Positions 4,680-52,520 of a stretch of 64,000 bases of DNA are shown one piece after another. The notes below the pieces were generated by a model that had not been told where the DNA came from, did no database searches, and worked only from the letters and a program-made list of their open reading frames with translations. This DNA comes from Sphingomonadales bacterium (GTDB lineage Bacteria; Pseudomonadota; Alphaproteobacteria; Sphingomonadales; Sphingomonadaceae): NCBI GenBank assembly GCA_025362295.1, contig JANYGX010000029.1, positions 62,001-126,000 of the forward strand, given 5' to 3'. Position numbers and translations under genes: made by a program. How positions within the stretch are numbered: the stretch's first letter is position 1; every line of letters begins with the position of its first letter.

Positions 4680-5413
4680 TGGCAACACGCGGCATTATTG
4701 TTGGCAGCGCATTGGCCACGATATTGTTTGGCGGCGTCGCTGCATGGTTTTGGCTAAAGCCGACTGCTAAAATTGTCGGTCATGACGTGCCGGGTTCAGT
4801 AGAGGTTAAAATTGCACCACTCAAAGAAGTGAAGATAATTGCTGCCCCAAATCAGCAACAACAACCACCTGTTGATTCAACCAGTGATCGAAAAGCTGTT
4901 ATCCGTGCGCTGGATAAGGTGACCATGCGAATGCAGGAATTCGAGATGGCCATGGACCAGACTGTGCATTTCGGTGCGCTTGATATTCGCGTGCGTACCT
5001 GTCAGGCCAACCCGCCTGAATTGCCGCCTGAAAACTCAGCCTTTTTGCAAATTTCAGAGACAAGACCCGATCATAAAAAAGTTCAGGTATTTTCTGGCTG
5101 GATGTATGGTTCAAGTCCAGCGTTGAACGCGCTTGAACACCCGGTTTATGACGTCTGGGTGATGACCTGCAAAATGAGCTTTCCTGACAAAGGCCCCGAT
5201 ACGATTGATGTGGCTTCGGCTTCCGCTATTGAAAAACGCGGCACGGGTAATGCGGATGAGGATGCCGTGGCGGCCTCAGACGAAATCAAACCCAAACGCA
5301 AGGCACGCAAACCCAAAGTTGAAGTTACCGCACCTGCAGAAACGGGTGCTGCACCATCGGATACACCGGCTGAAACGGCGCCTGCGCCGGCGGAGGGCAC
5401 CACAGACAATTGA
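4679..5413 (+). CDS. DUF2155 domain protein, exported
   Basis: A 244-residue protein with an N-terminal hydrophobic helix (about 5-22) and a DUF2155 domain at about 78-163 ([64 protein letters not shown]). The function is unknown; members are predicted periplasmic. Translation probably starts at GTG 4679, overlapping the mlaD stop (TAGTG), which implies translational coupling. The last 80 residues are a low-complexity Lys/Ala/Pro/Glu tail. That tail and the end of the domain lie opposite the 3' extension of aat on the other strand, an overlap of 268 bases. Confidence 0.85.
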
Positions 5414-6021
5414 AGCCGGTCAATCGCTGACCAATCTGCCTTATGTGCCATGGCGAAATGCAAGCGTTTTTGATAGGCTTTTTTGCTGATTTCAATCGCA
5501 CCAAAATGCGACAGATGGTCGGTGACAAATTGTGTATCAAGCAAGCTAAAGCTTCCAGTGCGCAGCCTTGCGACCAGGTACACCAACGCTACTTTTGATG
5601 CATCAGTTGCCCGAGAAAACATGCTCTCACCAAAAAATGCACCTTGCAAACACACACCATAAAGACCGCCAACCAGTTGATTGTCTTTCCACGTTTCTAC
5701 CGAATGTGCATAGCCTGCTGCGTGTAACTGTGTGTAACTCTCAAGTATGGAGGGGTTAATCCACGTATCGCGGCGTATGTCCGTTGCTTCGGCACACAAT
5801 TGCATCACATCCGTAAAGCACGTATTGATGCGCACTTCAAAGTGGTCTTGCCGGACAATTTTTGCCAGTGACCTTGAAATATGAAAATGATCCAGCGGGA
5901 GGATGCCGCGCTGCTTTGGTTCAACCCAAAAAATCTCAGGGTCATCAGCGCTGTTAGCCATTGGGAAAATGCCAGCTGCATAAGCGCGAATAAGAGTATC
6001 AGGAGATAGGGACTTGATCAT
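5146..6021 (-). CDS. aat: Leucyl/phenylalanyl-tRNA-protein transferase with antisense-derived tail
   Basis: Aat attaches Leu or Phe from aminoacyl-tRNA to proteins with N-terminal Lys or Arg, making N-degrons for ClpS/ClpAP. The core is complete in residues 1 to about 206: [10 protein letters not shown] (14-23), [35 protein letters not shown] (split over about 86-108), [14 protein letters not shown], and [12 protein letters not shown] near 180. Aat proteins usually end at about 220-240 residues. Here the frame stays open to 291, adding about 85 Ser/Ala/Gly/Val-rich residues that are the complement of the DUF2155 3' end. The start overlaps the acyltransferase stop by 23 bases. Either the original stop was lost or the tail is tolerated; the core is intact, so activity is likely. 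Confidence 0.9.
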
Positions 6022-7271: not shown

Positions 7272-8615
7272 TTATTGAGTTTTCATCAGCCACTCTTCGA
7301 GCCACTTGATGGAATATGTTCCAGCGATAAATTCTTCGCTTTCTAGCAAATCTTTATGCAACGGAATGGTGGTTGATGGGCCTTGAATGATATATTCCTC
7401 CAATGCACGGCGAAGCCGCATCAGGCAATCGTTTCGGTCATCACCGTAAACAATCAATTTGGAAATGAGGCTGTCATAATACGGAGGTATTTTATAGCCA
7501 TTGTATAGTGCACTGTCGACGCGCACATGCAACCCTCCTGGTGTGTGGTAGCCGGTAACGGTGCCAGGTGATGGCGCAAAAGTGCGTGGGTCCTCGGCGT
7601 TGATACGGCATTCAATAGCATGGCCTTTTAGCGTCACTTGGTCTTGTGTGACAGACAAAGGCAATCCACTCGCCACCCGTATTTGTTCGCGCACCAGATC
7701 AAGCCCGGAAATCATTTCTGTGACCGGATGTTCAACTTGAAGCCGGGTATTCATTTCAATAAAAAAGAATTTGCCGTTTTCGTAAAGAAACTCAATCGTA
7801 CCGGCACCCAAATAGCCCATCTTTGCCATGGCATTGGCGACGATCCCGCCCATGTCAGCGCGCTGCGCAGCTGTAATGGCCGGAGAGGGGGCCTCCTCTA
7901 AAACTTTTTGATGACGACGCTGCAACGAACAATCCCGCTCGCCTAAATGAATCGCATTGCCATGGTTGTCGCCAAACACCTGAAATTCAATATGGCGAGG
8001 GTTGCCTAAATATTTTTCAAGATAAACCGTCGCATCACCAAACGCGGCCTTTGCCTCCGAGCGGGCCTGGCTTATTTGCGTTTCCAGTTCATTGGCTGAC
8101 GTGACAACTTTCATACCGCGGCCACCACCGCCAGATGCTGCTTTTATTAACACAGGATAACCAATTTCATTGGCTATTGTCTGAGCCTCATCAAGGTCAT
8201 CGAGAGGTCCGTCTGACCCGGGCACCAGCGGCAAGCCGAGTGCAGCTGCTGTTCGCTTGGCTTCCACTTTATCGCCCATCATGCGAATATGCTCAGCTTT
8301 GGGGCCGATGAAAGTCAGGCCGTGATCTTCAACAATTTCTGCAAACTTGGCGTTCTCGGAAAGAAAACCATAGCCCGGATGGATAGCATCAGCGCCAGAT
8401 ATTTCAGCTGCCGAAACAATTGCCGGAATATTGAGATAGCTTTCAGCTGCTGAGGGTGGCCCAATACAAATTGCCTCATCAGCCAGTCTCACATGCATGG
8501 CCTCGTTGTCCGCCGTCGAATGTACAGCAACTGTTTTAATGCCCATATCGTGGCAGGCGCGGTGAATGCGAAGTGCAATTTCACCACGATTGGCAATCAG
8601 TATTTTTTCAAACAT
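7272..8615 (-). CDS. accC: Acetyl-CoA carboxylase, biotin carboxylase subunit
   Basis: Biotin carboxylase of acetyl-CoA carboxylase; it uses ATP and bicarbonate to carboxylate biotin on AccB, the first step of fatty acid synthesis. The 447 residues match the family length. Seen are the N-terminal [14 protein letters not shown] (4-17), [15 protein letters not shown] (about 80-94), the ATP-grasp glycine loop [10 protein letters not shown] (about 160-169), [20 protein letters not shown] (about 228-247), the catalytic [14 protein letters not shown] (about 287-300) and [13 protein letters not shown]. Its ATG overlaps the accB stop by one base (TAATG). It is the third gene of an aroQ-accB-accC operon. 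Confidence 0.97.
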
Positions 8616-9076
8616 TATTCAATCACCAGCAATGGTTCACCATATTCAACCGGTGCTTCGTTTGCGATAAAAATCTGGGTGACCGTGCCTGCCCGGGGAG
8701 CCGTAATCGGGTTCATCACTTTCATGGCTTCTATGATGATAAGGGTGTCGCCCTCCTTTACCACTGAGCCAATATTTACAAAGGCAGGTTTGCCTGGCTC
8801 GGAACAGGTGTATGCCGTTCCAACCATTGGAGATGGCACCATACCAGGATGTTTTGCGGCATCCACAGGAGATTGAACTACGGAAGGTGTAGCTAAAGCG
8901 ACGGGAACAGTGTTGGCAACCGCGCTGGCGGCCACCATTTGCCTCGCCACGCGAATGCGTTTTTCACCATCGACCACCTCAATCTCGGAAAGATCGGTCT
9001 CTTTCAGCAAACCGGCCAGTTCACGCACCAGCGCGGTATCGACCTGCATTTTGTCATTTTGAATTTTGCTTGCCAT
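8615..9076 (-). CDS. accB: Acetyl-CoA carboxylase, biotin carboxyl carrier protein
   Basis: Carrier of the biotin that shuttles CO2 between biotin carboxylase and carboxyltransferase. It is 153 residues. The N-terminal helix ([23 protein letters not shown]) and basic segment (KRIRVAR) are followed by a variable Ala/Val linker. The biotinyl domain (about 82-153) begins [14 protein letters not shown] and carries the biotinylation motif EAMKVMNPI (K119). The 13-residue thumb-like stretch of the E. coli type is present ([16 protein letters not shown]). It is encoded 58 bases after aroQ and overlaps accC by one base. Confident. Confidence 0.96.
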
Positions 9077-9134
9077 CCGCTGCCTTTGTTTTTGTTGTAT
9101 GTAGCCTGCTTAAAACCAGATAAGGCAAATAAGA

Positions 9135-9584
9135 TCAACTCTTGACAATTCTGGCAGCCGCTTCCAGCGCCAAGGTATATCCATGAGCACCAAAACCGCA
9201 AATAACGCCCTTGACCACTGGTGACAGATAGCTTCGATGACGAAACCGCTCCCGAGCATGGGGGTTGCTCAGGTGCACCTCAATAACCGGTATAGCGATT
9301 GATTTGATGGCATCGTGCAGGGCTATTGAGCTGTGAGTATAGGCACCGGCATTCAAAATCACGGCGGCGTGCTTGATAGCGGCTTCCTGGAGCCAATCGA
9401 TAAGCTGGCCCTCGTGATTGCTTTGCCGAAAAGCAACTTCTAAACCGATTGTTTTACCGTGGCTTATTAAACTCACTTCAATCTGCTTGAGAGTCGTTGA
9501 GCCATAAATTTCCGGCTCTCGCGTACCCAGAAGGTTCAAATTCGGACCATTCAACACCAGAATGGAATGATATTTTTTTGCCAT
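9135..9584 (-). CDS. aroQ: 3-Dehydroquinate dehydratase, type II
   Basis: Cytoplasmic enzyme of the shikimate pathway; it dehydrates 3-dehydroquinate to 3-dehydroshikimate. The product is 149 residues if started at the ATG at 9584 ([11 protein letters not shown]). A longer frame opens at 9668 but its first 28 residues are unlike the family, so the internal start is preferred. Motifs: [18 protein letters not shown] (about 10-27, catalytic Tyr in YG), [17 protein letters not shown] (about 55-71), [16 protein letters not shown] (about 80-95), [20 protein letters not shown] (about 104-123) and [11 protein letters not shown]. First gene of the aroQ-accB-accC operon, divergent from thiSG across 76 bases. 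Confidence 0.95.
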
Positions 9585-9660
9585 AAACAGCCTTGTTGAA
9601 GCCTTAGTAAACTCTCTTATAGTGCTTGTAAGACCATGACGCAAAGGCGCTGATATCCAA

Positions 9661-10632
9661 ATGATCACAATCCAACTGAATGGTGACCCTTACACCTTGC
9701 AGGAGAACCAAAATCTAACCCAACTGATGCAAGAGCTTGCTATCGACCCAACAAAGGTAGCCATTGAGCAAAACCGCCAGATTGTCCCGAAATCACTCTA
9801 TGATAGCACGACGATAAGTATCGGCGATCAGTTGGAGGTGGTGCATTTCGTGGGTGGGGGTGATCATGAAATGTGGCAGGTGGCGGGTCGTACTTTTAAA
9901 TCGCGGCTGATTGTTGGTACTGGCAAATATAAAAGCTTTGAGCAAAATGCGGCTGCCGTTGCCGCTTCAGGCGCTGAAATCGTTACGATAGCGATAAGAC
10001 GCGTTAACGTGATGGACCGCAATCAACCTGTGTTGATGGACTATATCGACCCCAAGACAATTACCTATCTGCCAAACACGGCGGGTTGTTTTACCGCTGA
10101 AGATGCCATGCGCACGCTGCGTCTGGCGCGGGAAGCCGGTGGCTGGAACCTGGTGAAGCTGGAAGTGCTTGGCGATAAAAAAACGCTTTATCCCAATATG
10201 ATTGAAACCCTTGCTGCTACCAAAATACTGGTGAAGGAAGGGTTTGATGTCATGGCCTACTGCTCCGACGATCCGATTATCTGCAAGCAGGTGGAAGAGG
10301 CGGGGGCTTGCGCCATCATGCCGCTAGGCGCACCCATCGGCTCGGGCCTTGGACTGCAAAATCCCGTCGGCATCCGGCTGATTATTGAGCAATCAAAAGT
10401 GCCGGTGCTGGTTGATGCCGGTGTCGGCTGCGCCTCTGATGCCACTATCGCGATGGAACTTGGCTGCGACGGTGTGCTTATGAACACGGCAATTGCCGAG
10501 GCGAAGGATCCGGTGTTGATGGCACACGCTATGAAGCTCGCCGTTGAGTCTGGTCGGGCAAGTTACCTGGCAGGCCGAATGGCTAAGAAAAAATACGCGG
10601 ACCCGTCAAGCCCGTTGGCAGGGCTAATTTAA
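9661..10632 (+). CDS. thiSG: ThiS-ThiG fusion: sulfur carrier and thiazole synthase
   Basis: One 323-residue frame joins two thiamine genes. Residues 1-67 are ThiS ([13 protein letters not shown], then [12 protein letters not shown]), a ubiquitin-like carrier whose C-terminal Gly-Gly must normally be free to be thiocarboxylated. Residues 71-323 are ThiG ([20 protein letters not shown]), the synthase that makes the thiazole ring from deoxyxylulose phosphate and carrier-borne sulfur; AIRRVN, LPNTAGC and LVDAGVG are family motifs, with the Schiff-base lysine in the LVKLEVLGD segment. ThiS-ThiG fusions are known in databases as bifunctional proteins. ATG 9871 could also start ThiG alone, preceded by GGGGGTGA. 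No TPP riboswitch is evident in the 76-base upstream gap, and thiE, thiO and thiF are not nearby. Confidence 0.93.
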
Positions 10633-18623: not shown

Positions 18624-19208
18624 ATGTTGTTGGTAAGGGAATACGAGTTGTCGGACACCACCGAAGGGGAACGGCGGACACCCATTTTGCAGGATGATGG
18701 CGATATTGCTATCGGCACAGTCAAATGGTTTGATGCTGTAAAGGGCTTTGGATTTATCGCAGTGAACGATGGCGCTGGCGATATCCTTATACATTACAGT
18801 GCATTGCGCGAAATAGGGCGCCGCACGCTGCCAGAGGGCGCAACCCTTAAGGTCACGTTTACGTTCAGGGAGCGCGGGCGTCAGGCGTCTAAAATCCTCT
18901 TGGCTGACTTATCCACGGCTATTGGACCGGATATGGAAGCGCTGATCGAGCGTGCCAATCATCGTCCGAATACTGCCAAACTTATTGATAGTGCAGATGA
19001 TTTTGTCATGGTGACCGTCAAGTGGTTCAATCGCTTGCGTGGGTACGGGTTTGTCGCTGGGGAAAACAGTCAGCCAGATATATTTCTCCATATGGAAACG
19101 CTTAGAAAAGCTGGCATCATGGATGCGCAACCGGGAGACCAGTTCAGGGTGCGTATTGCGCCGGGTGAAAAGGGGCCTCTGGCTGTTGTGGTTGAGCAAC
19201 TCTCTTGA
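18624..19208 (+). CDS. Two-domain cold-shock protein
   Basis: A 194-residue protein with two cold-shock nucleic-acid-binding domains, each with RNP1- and RNP2-like motifs: first about 30-98 ([28 protein letters not shown]), second about 128-194 ([31 protein letters not shown]). It binds single-stranded RNA or DNA and probably melts structure in the cytoplasm. Such double-CSD proteins are typical of alphaproteobacteria, where several act in stationary phase. The 206-base gap before it is AT-rich and could hold a long untranslated leader, but no cold box was identified. It precedes the DUF192 gene by 30 bases, and the two are often adjacent. Confidence 0.93.
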
Positions 19209-19238: not shown

Positions 19239-19745
19239 ATGAAATATAATGTTATTTATAGTGGCGTTGTAATTATGGGTTTGGTTGCAGGGGCACTAAC
19301 CTGTACTTGCGCAATTGCTCAGACTGAACAGGCGGAGCCCATGGGCATCGCGCAATCCTTGCCATTGACGACCATGATTGTGCACTCAGCCCACGGCAAA
19401 AAACACAGCTTTCATGTGCAGACAGCCAAAACTTTTGAGCAGCAGGAAATTGGCCTGATGTGGCGGCAATCCATGCCGGACACTGAAGGCATGTACTTCC
19501 CGTTTGATACAGAGCGGGAAGCCGCTTTCTGGATGAAAAACTGCTTTATGCCGATTGATATGCTGTTCATCAAAAAAGATGGCCGCATCGCCAATATCAT
19601 CACAGCGCCGCCCATGACACTTGAGCCGCGCAAATCAAATGGTGTTGTGATGGCGGTGCTAGAGCTGGGTGGAGGGGTTGCCGCAAAACAGGGCATCAAG
19701 CCTGGTGATAGGGTTCTGGCGGTTGATGGCCACACACACCGCTAG
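19239..19745 (+). CDS. DUF192 family exported protein
   Basis: A 168-residue DUF192 protein with an N-terminal signal peptide (VVIMGLVAGALTCTCAIAQ, cut near residue 28). The DUF192 domain (about 48-160) has the typical EQQEIGLMWRQSMPDTEGM (about 69-87), AAFWMKNCFMPIDMLFI (about 98-114) and PGDRVLAVDG. The role is unknown; related small beta proteins in archaea and bacteria have been solved without assigned activity. The last 20 bases overlap the start of the HprK-related kinase gene in another frame, so the downstream pair may be translated by coupling. Confidence 0.9.
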   Translation: MKYNVIYSGVVIMGLVAGALTCTCAIAQTEQAEPMGIAQSLPLTTMIVHSAHGKKHSFHVQTAKTFEQQEIGLMWRQSMPDTEGMYFPFDTEREAAFWMKNCFMPIDMLFIKKDGRIANIITAPPMTLEPRKSNGVVMAVLELGGGVAAKQGIKPGDRVLAVDGHTHR

Positions 19746-20625
19746 CGCTTCGTTTCCCTGCATTATAGAAATCGGCCCGTATCGCTACCGCATTGATACA
19801 CCGGTTGCCGCGCTGCGCCGTGATATTGCGAGGCTCTATGCAGAATTCCCGTGGCTCGACAGCAGCCACATCGCGGACTTCAGCATTCAGATCAAGGCCC
19901 CCTCAATCATCCGCAAGTTTTTCCGGCGCAATGTGCACGGCATCACCGATCTTGAAATGCCGTTCTTTCCGGTGCCGGTTCACCACGCGCTCACCTGCCT
20001 TGAAATGTCGATTAACTGGCAGACCGCAATGGGCAGCTTGCGGCATCTTATTCTTCATGCCTCAGGCGTGGCGCGCGGCGACGTATCCATCATCATGCCC
20101 GGCGAATCCGGTTCCGGCAAAAGCACCCTGGCCGCAGCGCTCGGCTACCGCAACGGCTGGCGCTTCATGGGTGACGAGTTTGCGCTGCTTGACCCCAATA
20201 CAGGCATGCACCAGCCTTATCCGCGCCCGGCATCACTGAAGAACGAGTCCATTCCGGTGATGCAAACCGAAGCGCCGGCCGAGCAGTTCAGCCAGATGTT
20301 CCACAACACCCACAAAGGCACGATTTGCTTTATCAAACCGCAAAAAACGGCCATCGAGGCCATGCATGTGCAAGCCAAACCAGTGATGATTGTGTTTCCG
20401 CATTTTGCCGCCAATGCAGAACCAAAACTGCACCCGCTCATGCAGGCGGAAGCATTCGTGAAGCTGGTGTCAGGCTCGGCAAATTATGATCGCATGGGCG
20501 AGGCAGGGTTTCGCCTGCTCAGCACCGTGGTCAAACAATGTAGCGCCTATGTGCTAACCTACAGCTCTTTCGATCAGGCCGAATCGTTGCTGCTCGGTGC
20601 GCTGAAAGAGCTTGGGCATGGCTGA
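19726..20625 (+). CDS. HprK-related kinase A
   Basis: A 299-residue P-loop protein resembling HPr kinase/phosphorylase. The Walker A motif GESGSGKST is at 126-134, preceded by LRHLILHASGVARGDVSIIM and followed by the FMGDEFALLD segment, with acidic residues in the expected Walker B region. It belongs to the HprK-related kinase A group, which occurs with a nucleotidyltransferase and usually a PqqD-like chaperone in a presumed peptide-modifying or surface-polymer system of unknown product. Here it overlaps DUF192 by 20 bases and the nucleotidyltransferase by 8. ATG 19726 is chosen because the open frame upstream (from 19669) lies inside DUF192. No PqqD-like gene is seen. Confidence 0.85.
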   Translation: MATHTASASFPCIIEIGPYRYRIDTPVAALRRDIARLYAEFPWLDSSHIADFSIQIKAPSIIRKFFRRNVHGITDLEMPFFPVPVHHALTCLEMSINWQTAMGSLRHLILHASGVARGDVSIIMPGESGSGKSTLAAALGYRNGWRFMGDEFALLDPNTGMHQPYPRPASLKNESIPVMQTEAPAEQFSQMFHNTHKGTICFIKPQKTAIEAMHVQAKPVMIVFPHFAANAEPKLHPLMQAEAFVKLVSGSANYDRMGEAGFRLLSTVVKQCSAYVLTYSSFDQAESLLLGALKELGHG

Positions 20626-21724
20626 ACACACCGGTGCCAAACTCATTAACGCCCTGCGCGCGCCAGGCCGCGTTGCCAGCTGGAATGCACGCACGTGGAC
20701 GGATGTGATATCGCTGGCCCGGCGCGAGCTCATGCTCGGTCATCTGGCGGCAGCCCTTGAAGCCGGGCATATTACGCCGCCCAAGCGTGTGCAGGAAAAC
20801 CTTGCCGATGCGCTGCGCGATACCTTTCACAACGCCCGCCGCAACCGGCAGGAGGCCGAGCGCTTGCTGGCGTTGCTGGCCCCACTGGGCTGTCCGGTGA
20901 TTGTGCTGAAGGGCACGGCGTACACCATGGCAGGCATTGCCGCCGGACAGGGTAGGCTGTCGGGTGATATCGATCTGCTGGTCCCGCGCGACCGGCTGGA
21001 TGTGGTTGAAGCGCGGTTGCTTGCCGATGGCTGGCTGATGCAAAAGACCGACCCTTACGACATGGCCTACTACCGCCACTGGATGCACGAGCTGCCCCCC
21101 ATGCAGCACGCCGAGCGTGGCACCAACCTCGATCTCCATCACACCATCATGCCGCTCACCGCCCGATTGCGGCCCGATGCCGCCGCACTGGTCGCCAGTG
21201 CTGTGCCGCTGGGCGATACCGGCCTCATACAGCTCTGCCCAGCGGATCAGGTGCTGCATTCCGCTGTGCATCTGTTTTACGATGGTGATCTCACCGGGGG
21301 CTTGCGCAACCTGCACGATCTCCACCGCTTGATCAGTGATTTTGGCACGACGTCAGAATTCTGGCAAAACCTTGCCGAACGTACAACGCTCCACGGTTTG
21401 TGTCGCCCGATGTTCTATGCGCTAAGATACGTGCAAGAATTTTTCGGGACACTTGATGGTCTTGATCCTCCCGCCCAACCTTACAAGAATGGGGGAGCGA
21501 GGGAGAATGTCTTTTATGCTAACCCGCCCATCTGGCCAGTCCTCGCACTCATGGACATCCTCGTTACCACTCGTCTCAAATCGGTTGATGCTGGCCCGCA
21601 CAGCTATCGTGTGCGCACATCAACGTTGCTCCTCTACATCCGCGCCCACTGGCTGAAAATGCCCCCCCGCATGCTGGCCAAACATTTATGGACCAAGTGG
21701 CGGAGGGGGAAGTCTGAGGGTTAG
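20618..21724 (+). CDS. Nucleotidyltransferase family protein, partner of the HprK-related kinase
   Basis: A 368-residue protein of the NTP_transf_5 group. The nucleotidyltransferase signature is VIVLKGTAY (about 96-104) followed by GDIDLLVPRD (116-125), where D117 and D119 would bind metal. Then come NLDLHHTIM and a helical C-terminal half with LHSAVHLF and NLHDLHRLI, usual for this family. The substrate is unknown; family members sit beside HprK-related kinases in polysaccharide or exosortase-linked loci. The ATG overlaps the kinase stop region (CATGGCTGA), so the two are translationally coupled. It converges with the TonB receptor gene with a one-base gap. Confidence 0.85.
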   Translation: MAEHTGAKLINALRAPGRVASWNARTWTDVISLARRELMLGHLAAALEAGHITPPKRVQENLADALRDTFHNARRNRQEAERLLALLAPLGCPVIVLKGTAYTMAGIAAGQGRLSGDIDLLVPRDRLDVVEARLLADGWLMQKTDPYDMAYYRHWMHELPPMQHAERGTNLDLHHTIMPLTARLRPDAAALVASAVPLGDTGLIQLCPADQVLHSAVHLFYDGDLTGGLRNLHDLHRLISDFGTTSEFWQNLAERTTLHGLCRPMFYALRYVQEFFGTLDGLDPPAQPYKNGGARENVFYANPPIWPVLALMDILVTTRLKSVDAGPHSYRVRTSTLLLYIRAHWLKMPPRMLAKHLWTKWRRGKSEG

Positions 21725-21725
21725 C

Positions 21726-24098
21726 TTAAATTTTGGCTTTCAATCCAAAGAAGAAGAACCTGCCGCGCGCATCATAAATACCACTTCCACCACTAATGCC
21801 GGATAGGCCATAAGGTGGTAGTTTATTGGTGAGATTGCTCACACCTAAATAAAAGTTAAGATGGCTGGTGGCCTCAAAATCAAGTCTGACATCATGGTAG
21901 AATACAGAGGGATAATACGTGATGGAAGCATAATCAGCATTCTGCGGCGGGCGACCCTGAACACTAAAAATGTTTTCATAACTATCAAGCAATTGTTTGC
22001 CGATATATTGCAGACCATAGTGCAGTGAAAAACGATCTCTCTTGATGCTTGAATCCCAACTGAAACGATCCTGCGGATCACCCAGTACACGGGTGATAAC
22101 CGTTGCGCGTCCTGGCTCGGCGGGGTTTAAAAACTGGTCATTCTGGAGAACATGTGTGTAGACCAAGCGTGTCGAGAATGTTCCAACTTTTTCAAAGTCG
22201 TGTGTATAATTTAATTCGGTATCAATACCACGTACTTTAAGTTTTGCGAAATTAAGAGAAGATTGCAGCAAGCTGCCTTCCAGAACCTGGAAAGGCACTT
22301 CATTTTTTGGACCTACAGCGTTTGGATCTGTCGTTATAAAACGTTTAAACAATCCACAAAATGCATTGTTCAACGTGGCTTGGTCGTAACATTGATCCAA
22401 AATTGTTTGTGCATCGACGCTGGAGATAACTTTATTGACTGTGATGCTGTAATAATCAACGGACAATGAAAGGCCAGGCACAAATCTTGGCTGGAATACA
22501 CCACCAACAGTAATGGATTTAGACGTTTCAGCTTTAAGGGCTGGGTTTCCACCAGAACGAATTTCAATAGATTGAGAATACGCAAAGTTATAATTTGCCG
22601 GTCTCCCGGCCGCTGCGCAGTTTGCTGCACGGGTTGCAGAGCCGGTAACAATATTATCAGCTGAGCAGGGGTCAACCACTGTCGCAAAGTTTTGTGATTG
22701 TGCACTGTAAAGTTCTACCAGATTGGGCGCGCGCGTTGCGCTCGCGTAATTGCCGCGAAATTTGAAATCTTGCACAGGCGCGAAATCTATGCCGCCATTG
22801 TAAGAATATACTGTGCCAGTTGAACCTTTATAGCGGGCGACTCGACCAGCGCCACTGAGTGTCAATTCTTCAATAAATTTCGCACCTTTAATAATGGGCA
22901 CGCGAAGCTCGCCGTAAGCTTCCTTGACTTCAAAAGACGGCGGCTTGAATGTTGGCAGCGCGTTATAAAAAGTGTACCCCTGTTCAACAAGCGGATCGGC
23001 TTGAAAAAAGTTCGTCTCTTTACGGTACTCGGCACCAACGGCCATGGCGACAGGGCCTCCAGGCAATGTGAACCATTTGCTTGTATCGCCACTCACATTG
23101 GCACTCACGTCAAATTGAGTGATTTTACCAACAGATGTTGTGTCCTGCAGCAAGTAGGCTTTCTGGGCCTGAGTGAATTGACCACCAAACAAATTGACGG
23201 GTACGCATGCTGCGACATCCGCATCCAGTATGGCTTGGTTAGGCACCGTTACGAAACCAATCGCTGCTGTAGGGTCAATTTTTGACCGGCAGACAATTTG
23301 GCCAGATGCAGGGTCTCTCGTGACATCAACACCCAGCAAAAAACGTTGCGTGTTAAGGTTGCCTAACACGCGGGTTTTTTCACGGAATTCACCGTAATTG
23401 GCGGCAAGTTCATATTTCCAATCACTGCTGATCTGGCCTCTGACGCCGACGACGGCACGGTATGTTTCCCGCTTGGCCTCTTCCAGACGATTGCCAAGAC
23501 CTTGCATATTAAGACGCAAAGAAAACTGCCTATCCGGCGCTGGTGCTGTACCGTTTGCAAGGGTCAACTGCTGAATAATTGTCGCTCGAGCTTGATCACT
23601 CAAATATGGGTTATCGAGATGGGGACGTTCACGATCACCATCCAGTGTCGAGCCGGTGATAAAGGCTGGTCCACTATTACCAGTACCCAAAGTTTTGGTT
23701 TGCACATACTTTGCTTCAATGAAAGGTACGAAAGCATTAGAAATGTCATAATGACCAATTATATTAAGACTGTAGCGGTCCAGCTTTGGCGAAAGCTGCA
23801 CTTGCGTGCCACTGCGAAAATTTTCCCCATTGCCACCGATGAAGTTTCCACTAGGGCCGATACCAACGCGTTTGCCCGTGAGTGGTACCAGAGTGCCATC
23901 AGTTTGAAAAATGAATGGCACATTATAAAAGCGTGGACCTATAGCCCCTGTGGTCGGGTTTACACCATTTGGGTTTCCATCGGTGCCTGCATTAAGATTT
24001 GCATTGCCGCCAAAGCGTATAACGCCTGTGTTGCTAAATCCAGCACTACGCACATCTTGAAAAAATTGCCTGTCCGGTATTCCATCGCTACCATTCAA
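21726..24098 (-). CDS. TonB-dependent receptor, C-terminal barrel fragment
   Basis: The barrel part of the same receptor, in the same frame as the N-terminal fragment. The first possible start after the internal stop is a TTG at 24098, with no convincing ribosome site, so independent translation is unlikely. The coding sequence itself continues upstream to 24170. FKFRGNYASATRAPNLVELY and NFYLGVSNLTNKLPP are typical barrel segments. Confidence 0.7.
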   Translation of the reverse strand: MNGSDGIPDRQFFQDVRSAGFSNTGVIRFGGNANLNAGTDGNPNGVNPTTGAIGPRFYNVPFIFQTDGTLVPLTGKRVGIGPSGNFIGGNGENFRSGTQVQLSPKLDRYSLNIIGHYDISNAFVPFIEAKYVQTKTLGTGNSGPAFITGSTLDGDRERPHLDNPYLSDQARATIIQQLTLANGTAPAPDRQFSLRLNMQGLGNRLEEAKRETYRAVVGVRGQISSDWKYELAANYGEFREKTRVLGNLNTQRFLLGVDVTRDPASGQIVCRSKIDPTAAIGFVTVPNQAILDADVAACVPVNLFGGQFTQAQKAYLLQDTTSVGKITQFDVSANVSGDTSKWFTLPGGPVAMAVGAEYRKETNFFQADPLVEQGYTFYNALPTFKPPSFEVKEAYGELRVPIIKGAKFIEELTLSGAGRVARYKGSTGTVYSYNGGIDFAPVQDFKFRGNYASATRAPNLVELYSAQSQNFATVVDPCSADNIVTGSATRAANCAAAGRPANYNFAYSQSIEIRSGGNPALKAETSKSITVGGVFQPRFVPGLSLSVDYYSITVNKVISSVDAQTILDQCYDQATLNNAFCGLFKRFITTDPNAVGPKNEVPFQVLEGSLLQSSLNFAKLKVRGIDTELNYTHDFEKVGTFSTRLVYTHVLQNDQFLNPAEPGRATVITRVLGDPQDRFSWDSSIKRDRFSLHYGLQYIGKQLLDSYENIFSVQGRPPQNADYASITYYPSVFYHDVRLDFEATSHLNFYLGVSNLTNKLPPYGLSGISGGSGIYDARGRFFFFGLKAKI

Positions 24099-24170
24099 AG
24101 CGCCATCAGGGTTTGTTTCGACTTGTAAAAAAGCATCCTGCCTTTTGTACGGGCGCTTACTCCCGAAATA

Positions 24171-24881
24171 TTAGTCTTGGCGAGCATATTCAAAATTAAC
24201 GGCGACATTACCTTTTCCTCCAGCGAAATTTGTTCCGGCCAACAGGCTTGCATAATATGAATTGGCATCCCCGTAATTGCTGGTGCCGCCTTGACCGCGC
24301 AGTTCAATGCCGCTGTAATTTTGTTTCAAGATAAAATTGACAACGCCAGCAATGGCGTCTGAGCCATAGATTGCAGAATTCCCACCGGTCACTATATCGA
24401 CGCGCTCAATAAGGTCCGTCGGAAACGTGTTTGTGTCTGGCGATACTGCATTGTTCAAAATATCACCGCCAACATGGCGACGGCCATTGACCAGCACAAG
24501 TGTACGTTGGGTGCCAAGCCCGCGAAGATCGAGCAAATTAAGGCCAGCGGTTCCCAAAAAGCGTGTTGAGTTTGCTTGGCTGTAGGTACTGCGTAATGAA
24601 GGCAATTTATTCAGCACATCACCGACAGAAATTATACCAGATTCCAGCAATGACTTTCCAGATATCGTCGTGATAGGCACTGTCGATGTTAAACCCGGCC
24701 TTGAAATGCGTGACCCTGTAACCACAATAGTTTCAAGATTAACTTCACTTTCAGTTTTTTTCTCAATTTTACTTTTAGCTTTAGCGACCGGTGCCGTTTG
24801 TGCGTGCACCCCGCTTGCAAAAATAGTACTTGTTAACAACGCAATAAGAATAGCAGAACGCTTGTTAATTTTAACTATCAT
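24171..24881 (-). CDS. TonB-dependent receptor, N-terminal fragment
   Basis: The first 236 codons of the interrupted receptor: signal peptide, TonB box and complete plug domain, ending EYARQD then TAA. If translated alone it would be an exported plug without a barrel. Confidence 0.7.
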   Translation of the reverse strand: MIVKINKRSAILIALLTSTIFASGVHAQTAPVAKAKSKIEKKTESEVNLETIVVTGSRISRPGLTSTVPITTISGKSLLESGIISVGDVLNKLPSLRSTYSQANSTRFLGTAGLNLLDLRGLGTQRTLVLVNGRRHVGGDILNNAVSPDTNTFPTDLIERVDIVTGGNSAIYGSDAIAGVVNFILKQNYSGIELRGQGGTSNYGDANSYYASLLAGTNFAGGKGNVAVNFEYARQD

Positions 24882-50123: not shown

Positions 50124-52520
50124 TTAGCTTTGAATAAGGTCTATTTCTTTTTCAAGTGCACTAAAAACATCATCAATCTCTTTTAAGTGCGCACGTTCTG
50201 CAATTAATATTGATTTAAACAATTGTTTTTTTATACTTTTGAAATTGATGTTTTGTTTTATTTCTGGGACTGATGAGATTACTAGATCAACAAGCCTATC
50301 CGCTGCGTGAAGTCTGCCCCAAAGATAATCATTTTCGCGGTACGCGCGAGAAAAAAAGGCCCCAAAAGATCCAAAGTTTATGCCTTTCAGGCAACTTTGA
50401 GCGCCGCCTTTGCGTATGGCCACAGCATCCTCCGGCGATATGCGATCAACCTTTATTTCCTCAAGACTTTCGATAACATTATCTTGATGCTTAGAGTTTG
50501 CAGCATTAATTTGCATGGGTAATGTCGCAATATCAAAGAAAGAAAACCCGACATACGAGAGAAGCAGATCGCGACGGATAGCTGGGTGAGAAATTTTTAA
50601 CAATGCATCCGCCAGTTTGTCATCTGTTTGACTATCTGAATCTGTCAAACGGAGCCGCTCAGAAAAAGACAAAATAGCCTTGTCGATATGTATCATATCC
50701 GTAACATCATAAATCTTATTGTAATTATTACTTATTACAAAAAAACCAAGACAATCATACAGAGTTTTTTTAAAATCATCCAACTCTTTTGAGTTGTTTG
50801 CATTCGCCTGGTCCATAAGCCGGGTTTGAGTGTATAAGGCATTAACGCGCCGAATTAAAAATCGAAGGCGACGAATACGAAAACCCTGATCCAATTGGCT
50901 TAAAAACTTTATCCACGGCGTTGTATTATTTTTCAAAGACAATATATCAAAACGCTCCACAGGCAGTATAGCATTTTGTTTGGCCCAGGCGTGAGTAAGG
51001 TCATATATTGAATGACCGCCGGCAGATATTTTTGATTGAAAGAAAGCAGAAATAAAATCTGCCAGAGAATCCAGAACAGCATATAATTTTGTATCGACAT
51101 AAGGCGTATAAGCAAAGCCTGAGGATGTTGCAGCCTCTATATGCCCCAGTTGTCGCCACTCTTTCAAGTTTGTACCAGTTAATGTGCTGAGTGAGATGTG
51201 CGCTCCCAATTTTGATTCAATGGCATCGGTTACATCGTCACGCATATTTTCAATAATTATATTGATACGTTGCGCTCGCTTTGACTGATTTTGAAGCCAC
51301 TCGAGATCATCATGGATAGGTTGATTGCGGGGAATATCAGAAAGAGCCGCGCGAATAGTGCCAAAAAAGCTCGGATTACTATGAATTATATTGTCATGAG
51401 TGTTTCGTGGATTGGGTTCTATGTAAACTATCCGGCGATCAACCTCGCGGTATGCAGTATGGCGAGGCAATGCTTCAATAGCTTCCCTGAAAGGTTTGTT
51501 ATTGAGCACAGATCCGTCAATGAAAGCCGAATGCAGTGGGCTGCCACCTTGCTCTATCAACTGGCTAAAGGTGCGTTCGGTAAAACCCTGATAACTTTCC
51601 CATGCATCATTATGCTTCAGGGCTACAGCTTTCATCTCGTCAAGCGTAGCAGGCGGAAACATTCCGGGAAAACTTGCTGTGGCTCTTGCTGCAAACGCCA
51701 GATCAGCAATACTGCCGATTTGACGTTGTCGGTTCTCCTGCATACCTCTATCGTTAAAGCTGATCACAAGCCGGTGTTCAATTTCTTTTATTGTATTGGG
51801 TGAGTGCAATTTCAGGGCATGCGCATAGCCATGATAGTCTGTAACAGTCACAAACAAATCCAGTGGATGCCCAGCCGGCAGTAGCGCCTCCTTGCTGCCA
51901 CCACCACCCATATTCATGGTTGCTTCATACAGAATGTTTGCAAAACCGGAACCGGAAAATGGCGGCTCAAACCACCGCGAGCGCAAGAACTTTGAAAGCT
52001 TCATGCGCATTTCAAGGCTTGAATTCTTGCCTATCATTTCACTAATATGCTGGCTTTGCAAATGTCCGCTCAACCAAAGCAAGGGTCTAATATAAAATTT
52101 ACTCCACTTTCCTGGTGCTGCGTTCTTGTCCAGCAATTGTTCAACGTCCGCATTGGCCAGCCACATCTCTCTCAGTGGATCCAGTGGCAAATCTTCGGCT
52201 ATGGCTCGCGCCAGAAAAATGCCGTTTATACCACCAGCCGAAGCACCGGCAATAATATCAACAAAAACGCGCAAATTAACATCGTGCCCAATTTGTTTCA
52301 AAAGCTCATAGTATATAATTTCAGTATCGGTTTCGCGGTTGTTATCTTCATTTTTACCAATATATGAATTATCTTTTTGCTCTACTTTTTTATGGTATAT
52401 TTTTGAAGCACGCAGCAATTTCTGGAATTCTTTGGTAATGCCGTGCATGTAAATGGCGAGTGAAATGCCGCCGTAACAGACGAGTGCCAATCGCAATTCT
52501 TTTTGTTTCACAAAACGCAT
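50124..52520 (-). CDS. Large patatin-like protein (DUF3376 group)
   Basis: A 798-residue patatin-like phospholipase. The N-terminus ELRLALVCYGGISLAIYMHG gives the oxyanion-hole glycines; the nucleophile elbow is IIAGASAGGINGIFLARAIA (89-108) with Ser94; the catalytic Asp lies in AFIDGSVLNNKPF near residue 337 (DGS where DGG/DGA is more common). The remaining 450 residues are the helical DUF3376 type, distinguishing it from short patatins such as CapV. It is AT-richer than its neighbours. The family is thought to act on lipids at the membrane, substrate unknown. It stands alone and converges with the HerA-like gene. Confidence 0.88.
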   Translation of the reverse strand: MRFVKQKELRLALVCYGGISLAIYMHGITKEFQKLLRASKIYHKKVEQKDNSYIGKNEDNNRETDTEIIYYELLKQIGHDVNLRVFVDIIAGASAGGINGIFLARAIAEDLPLDPLREMWLANADVEQLLDKNAAPGKWSKFYIRPLLWLSGHLQSQHISEMIGKNSSLEMRMKLSKFLRSRWFEPPFSGSGFANILYEATMNMGGGGSKEALLPAGHPLDLFVTVTDYHGYAHALKLHSPNTIKEIEHRLVISFNDRGMQENRQRQIGSIADLAFAARATASFPGMFPPATLDEMKAVALKHNDAWESYQGFTERTFSQLIEQGGSPLHSAFIDGSVLNNKPFREAIEALPRHTAYREVDRRIVYIEPNPRNTHDNIIHSNPSFFGTIRAALSDIPRNQPIHDDLEWLQNQSKRAQRINIIIENMRDDVTDAIESKLGAHISLSTLTGTNLKEWRQLGHIEAATSSGFAYTPYVDTKLYAVLDSLADFISAFFQSKISAGGHSIYDLTHAWAKQNAILPVERFDILSLKNNTTPWIKFLSQLDQGFRIRRLRFLIRRVNALYTQTRLMDQANANNSKELDDFKKTLYDCLGFFVISNNYNKIYDVTDMIHIDKAILSFSERLRLTDSDSQTDDKLADALLKISHPAIRRDLLLSYVGFSFFDIATLPMQINAANSKHQDNVIESLEEIKVDRISPEDAVAIRKGGAQSCLKGINFGSFGAFFSRAYRENDYLWGRLHAADRLVDLVISSVPEIKQNINFKSIKKQLFKSILIAERAHLKEIDDVFSALEKEIDLIQS

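Follow-up and report, generated by a model that had tools for sequence, protein, structure and literature searches.

TonB-dependent outer-membrane receptors combine a Plug domain (PF07715) with a beta-barrel domain (PF00593), and the gene described here is like them in having both domains, in the same order and over a similar length. It differs from them in that an in-frame stop codon parts the plug from the barrel. The closest solved structure by sequence is BtuB (PDB 3rgm), with which the Plug region aligns at an E-value of 1.5e-16 over residues 48-205; the barrel match is marginal (a second stretch of 4.2 bits) and offers no basis for inferring a substrate. The locus also shares with known single-nonsense pseudogenes a single stop in an otherwise intact frame and the presence of intact relatives elsewhere.

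The window, that is, the whole stretch of 64,000 nucleotides that was analysed, holds the receptor gene on its minus strand (24881..21726). Direct reading gives 1052 codons, 1050 of them sense, in a frame that opens with an ATG at the 24881 end, is interrupted by a single internal TAA and closes with a terminal TAA at 21728..21726. The parts are as follows.

24174..24881, minus strand: 5' piece of 236 codons, with a signal-peptide-like N-terminus (judged by eye), the Plug domain (PF07715, E 9e-20, residues 66-180) and the start of the barrel

24171..24173, minus strand: in-frame TAA, codon 237, read directly and also reported by the genome search, which lists "1 TAA" within the match

21726..24170, minus strand: 3' piece of 814 beta-barrel codons (PF00593, E 7.6e-28) plus the terminal TAA

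Both domains were assigned by profile search, and none of the listed NCBIfam models passed its own cut-off with either piece. By eye, the N-terminus is a putative signal peptide and the motif ETIVVTG a putative TonB box. Both domains of a TonB-dependent receptor are thus present and one continuous protein is not; judged from its sequence, the gene is a broken member of the family and may make no working receptor. In 2000 single-base shuffles of the gene, the 1050 codons contained 56 stops on average and never fewer than 34, indicating that the open frame on both sides of the TAA is not due to chance. A scan for promoters and terminators returned 4 and 7 sites, respectively, compared with averages of 5.6 and 4.9 in shuffled sequence.

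The closest relative found (G062), retrieved with a query carrying X at the stop, is 62% identical over residues 12-1050 and has no stop, and the 3' piece alone is 53% identical to another intact relative (G028) over residues 2-810. The earlier note had described the locus as one TonB-dependent receptor with one in-frame TAA and no damage to the frame, and this is borne out by the shared frame, by the Plug before and the barrel after the stop, by the unbroken relative at 62% identity and by the 1050 sense codons that are otherwise open. We aligned 19 relatives across the stop site, these being the best matches returned by a search of 397 genomes, with the own locus left out, as placed by tblastn. 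The protein is continuous in all of them, with open frames of 1044-1135 residues, to which the total length of the present gene is similar, and none of the 19 carries a stop at the position of codon 237. Relative to these intact homologues the stop is premature, as in a nonsense pseudogene. The residue aligned to it is D in nine relatives, K in four, P in three and A, R and S in one each, which means that the relatives do not reveal what the codon was before; the CAA-to-TAA change proposed in the earlier note is conceivable but draws no support from them, with six other residues and no glutamine at this position. The stop lies in a variable stretch, probably just past the first barrel strand.

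Searches further afield returned little. There was no DNA match to the receptor gene among the plasmid sequences and no exact match to the one 27-base pattern sought in viral contigs, and a genome contig scan gave a single relative at 47% identity. When, in search of a conserved neighbourhood that might hint at the substrate, 18 hand-selected non-receptor ORFs from window positions 12036-40972 were compared with seven 17-20 kb stretches surrounding relatives, none matched at E 1e-8, and the receptor pieces were the only matches. The listings and abstract openings returned by a literature search contained nothing evidently concerning this receptor gene.

The genome itself gives 20 matches to the barrel domain and 21 to the Plug. 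Each of the 19 barrel genes besides this receptor has a frame of 674-994 residues that also holds a Plug match, and the split receptor is the only one of the 20 whose barrel frame is without a Plug. Its Plug lies in a frame of 243, the shortest among the 21 Plug matches, the others lying in frames of at least 674. The best other match to the receptor within this genome is 30% identical over most of the query, and the second is 35% identical over residues 348-614. Since no own copy is closer than 30%, a collapsed repeat or chimeric assembly is unlikely to have produced the stop. A separate observation concerns another of the genome's own receptor genes (L042; G000 C7, about 7333-9798), whose frame contains no ATG among its first 385 codons; translation would have to begin at a different codon, for instance the TTG with which the frame opens.

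How long the stop has been present can be bounded from the absence of a second one. A random substitution in this gene has a chance of about 2.6-3.5% of creating a stop, and the lack of any further stop sets a 95% bound of about 2.8-3.7% neutral divergence, the point at which three further stops would be expected, a figure that counts stops only and assumes neutrality. On that assumption, the stop probably arose more recently than this bound. The result is consistent with the recent event suggested in the earlier note, and the same absence of stops would fit a gene that is still maintained.

The further statement that no other damage is visible holds for the reading frame, which has neither a second stop nor a frameshift, but not for every conserved residue. 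Among columns invariant in the 19 relatives, all 53 upstream of the stop, from residue 50 onwards, are kept and 121 of 126 after it, the five changed residues being 257, 714, 932, 958 and 1044. The last residue is I, in place of F in 18 of the 19 relatives and M in the remaining one; elsewhere in the genome, 14 of the 19 remaining barrel genes have F or Y as the final residue and 5 do not. The fraction of downstream invariant columns kept, 0.960, lies within the range of the relatives in a leave-one-out comparison (mean 0.976, minimum 0.933), and the five changes therefore do not distinguish decay from ordinary divergence. The mean distance to 18 relatives, given as the ratio of this gene to its closest relative, is 0.95 before the stop and 1.08 after it, and the median after/before ratio is 1.55 for this gene versus 1.43 among relatives (range 1.05-2.83). 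The slightly greater distance after the stop leans towards relaxed constraint, but it lies within the spread of the relatives, and faster change after the stop is too weakly marked to call.

To place the stop among its relatives, we counted stop-bearing copies in 397 genomes of the same family, the own genome included, scoring at most two candidates per genome at E <= 1e-150. The search gave 106 matches in 100 of the 397 genomes, 104 of them without an internal stop, a count in which many matches span only a portion of the query and any stop beyond the aligned region goes unscored. The two exceptions are the present gene and a copy in another genome (L112; G342 C4:25527-27686), each with one TAA. 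The latter stop falls at a different, conserved place in the Plug region of a frame that is otherwise open, and its different position marks it as an independent event. An earlier and wider search took the 3' piece as query against 59 genomes; at E <= 1e-50 it found 74 matches, spread over 41 of these genomes. One match has a stop, a TGA; this is a distant receptor match of 46% identity near a contig end (L019; G010 C39:307-1218). As a control of comparable length we used another gene of the same window (1028 residues), which we take to be an RND-type efflux pump. Under the same limit of two candidates per genome, 118 matches to it came from 82 of the 397 genomes, one of the matches with a stop (TAG). 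Single-stop copies make up about 1% of each set and look like background, and an excess of broken receptors of the kind selection might leave is not seen (2/106, or 1/105 without the present case, versus 1/118 in the control and 1/74 in the wider search), though with numbers this small a modest difference could go unnoticed. The closest relative and 104 of the 106 family matches are stop-free; no genome of the same genus was among the 58 other genomes of the wider search.

The reading we favour, at a probability of roughly 0.7, is that one TonB-dependent receptor gene has been inactivated by a single nonsense substitution and is now either a pseudogene of recent origin or an allele that segregates within the species. 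Translation would end at residue 236 and yield a plug fragment without a barrel, unable to act as a receptor; the barrel piece beyond the stop would either not be made or stay unexported for want of a signal peptide, and the loss may be tolerated in a cell with 19 other barrel genes. The main rival to recent inactivation is a base error in sequencing or assembly, the real gene being intact, which we consider unlikely yet credible. Such an error would account for a frame otherwise open over 1050 codons and for invariant columns kept on both sides of the stop about as they are in intact relatives, and the one stop-bearing copy of the control gene does come from an assembly that is itself fragmented (G408; 880 contigs, contamination 7). 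Here, however, the TAA site contains no homopolymer and is situated well inside a large contig (C7:86171-86173, with other matches on C7 extending to 160866), there is no near-identical paralogue to produce a mixed consensus, and the assembly is listed with completeness 100 and contamination 0. A stop favoured by selection is a further, very improbable explanation. Outer-membrane receptors can serve as phage receptors, and losing this one might protect the cell from a phage or bacteriocin that depends on it; the single independent TAA in the G342 family member would fit such a history, but the family counts, present case included, show no visible excess over the control, within what such small numbers can reveal.

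The intact sequence downstream, 814 open codons under apparently near-normal constraint, would also be expected if the stop were read through or if the two pieces were made separately as a split receptor, and bypass of the stop had been raised in the earlier note. We find this very unlikely. None of the 36 tRNAs found in the genome (ARAGORN applied to tRNA matches) reads UAA, in a list that may miss a few: Ala-TGC and Ile-GAT, which are usual in rRNA operons, are not in it. TAA terminates 9 of 34 window ORFs hand-picked as likely genes and is a normal stop in this genome. The 3' piece begins inside the mature protein and has no evident signal peptide or other export signal; the first codon in it that could serve as a start is a TTG, 24 codons past the stop, and its first ATG comes about 221 codons in. 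From what outer-membrane protein biogenesis demands, a barrel started within this piece would not be expected to be exported normally. The rarity of stops among the family matches, their absence at this site in all 19 relatives and the different position of the G342 stop argue against conserved recoding. The tRNA set, the start sites and the lack of conservation of the stop thus all disfavour recoding and split-gene function. Least probable of all, in our estimate, is a leaky stop that supplies a low level of receptor from the intact downstream frame and so keeps a costly or phage-exposed receptor rare.

Under the favoured reading of a single inactivating substitution, annotation should treat the two pieces as a single disrupted gene and not as two proteins, and the stop, if confirmed in reads, would mean that this lineage has recently lost one uptake route. 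Inactivation of this kind is an ordinary event that adds nothing beyond the known single-nonsense pseudogenes and opens no general question.

Several other genes in the window were recorded alongside the receptor. On the plus strand, an HprK-related kinase A gene (TIGR04352, 8.6e-87) is directly followed by an NTP_transf_5 nucleotidyltransferase gene (PF14907), the two spanning 19669-21724, with G+C of 0.57 and 0.61, respectively, versus about 0.46 for the receptor gene. Also on the plus strand, 18624-19208 encodes a protein with two stretches matching cold-shock models, the best of which scores below its curated cut-off. On the minus strand, an acyltransferase gene (PF01757, 5999-7105) has a low G+C of 0.39 and overlaps the gene for a Leu/Phe-tRNA protein transferase (5146-6021) by 23 bases, and a patatin-like protein with a DUF3376 region is encoded at 50124-52520, also at a low G+C of 0.42.
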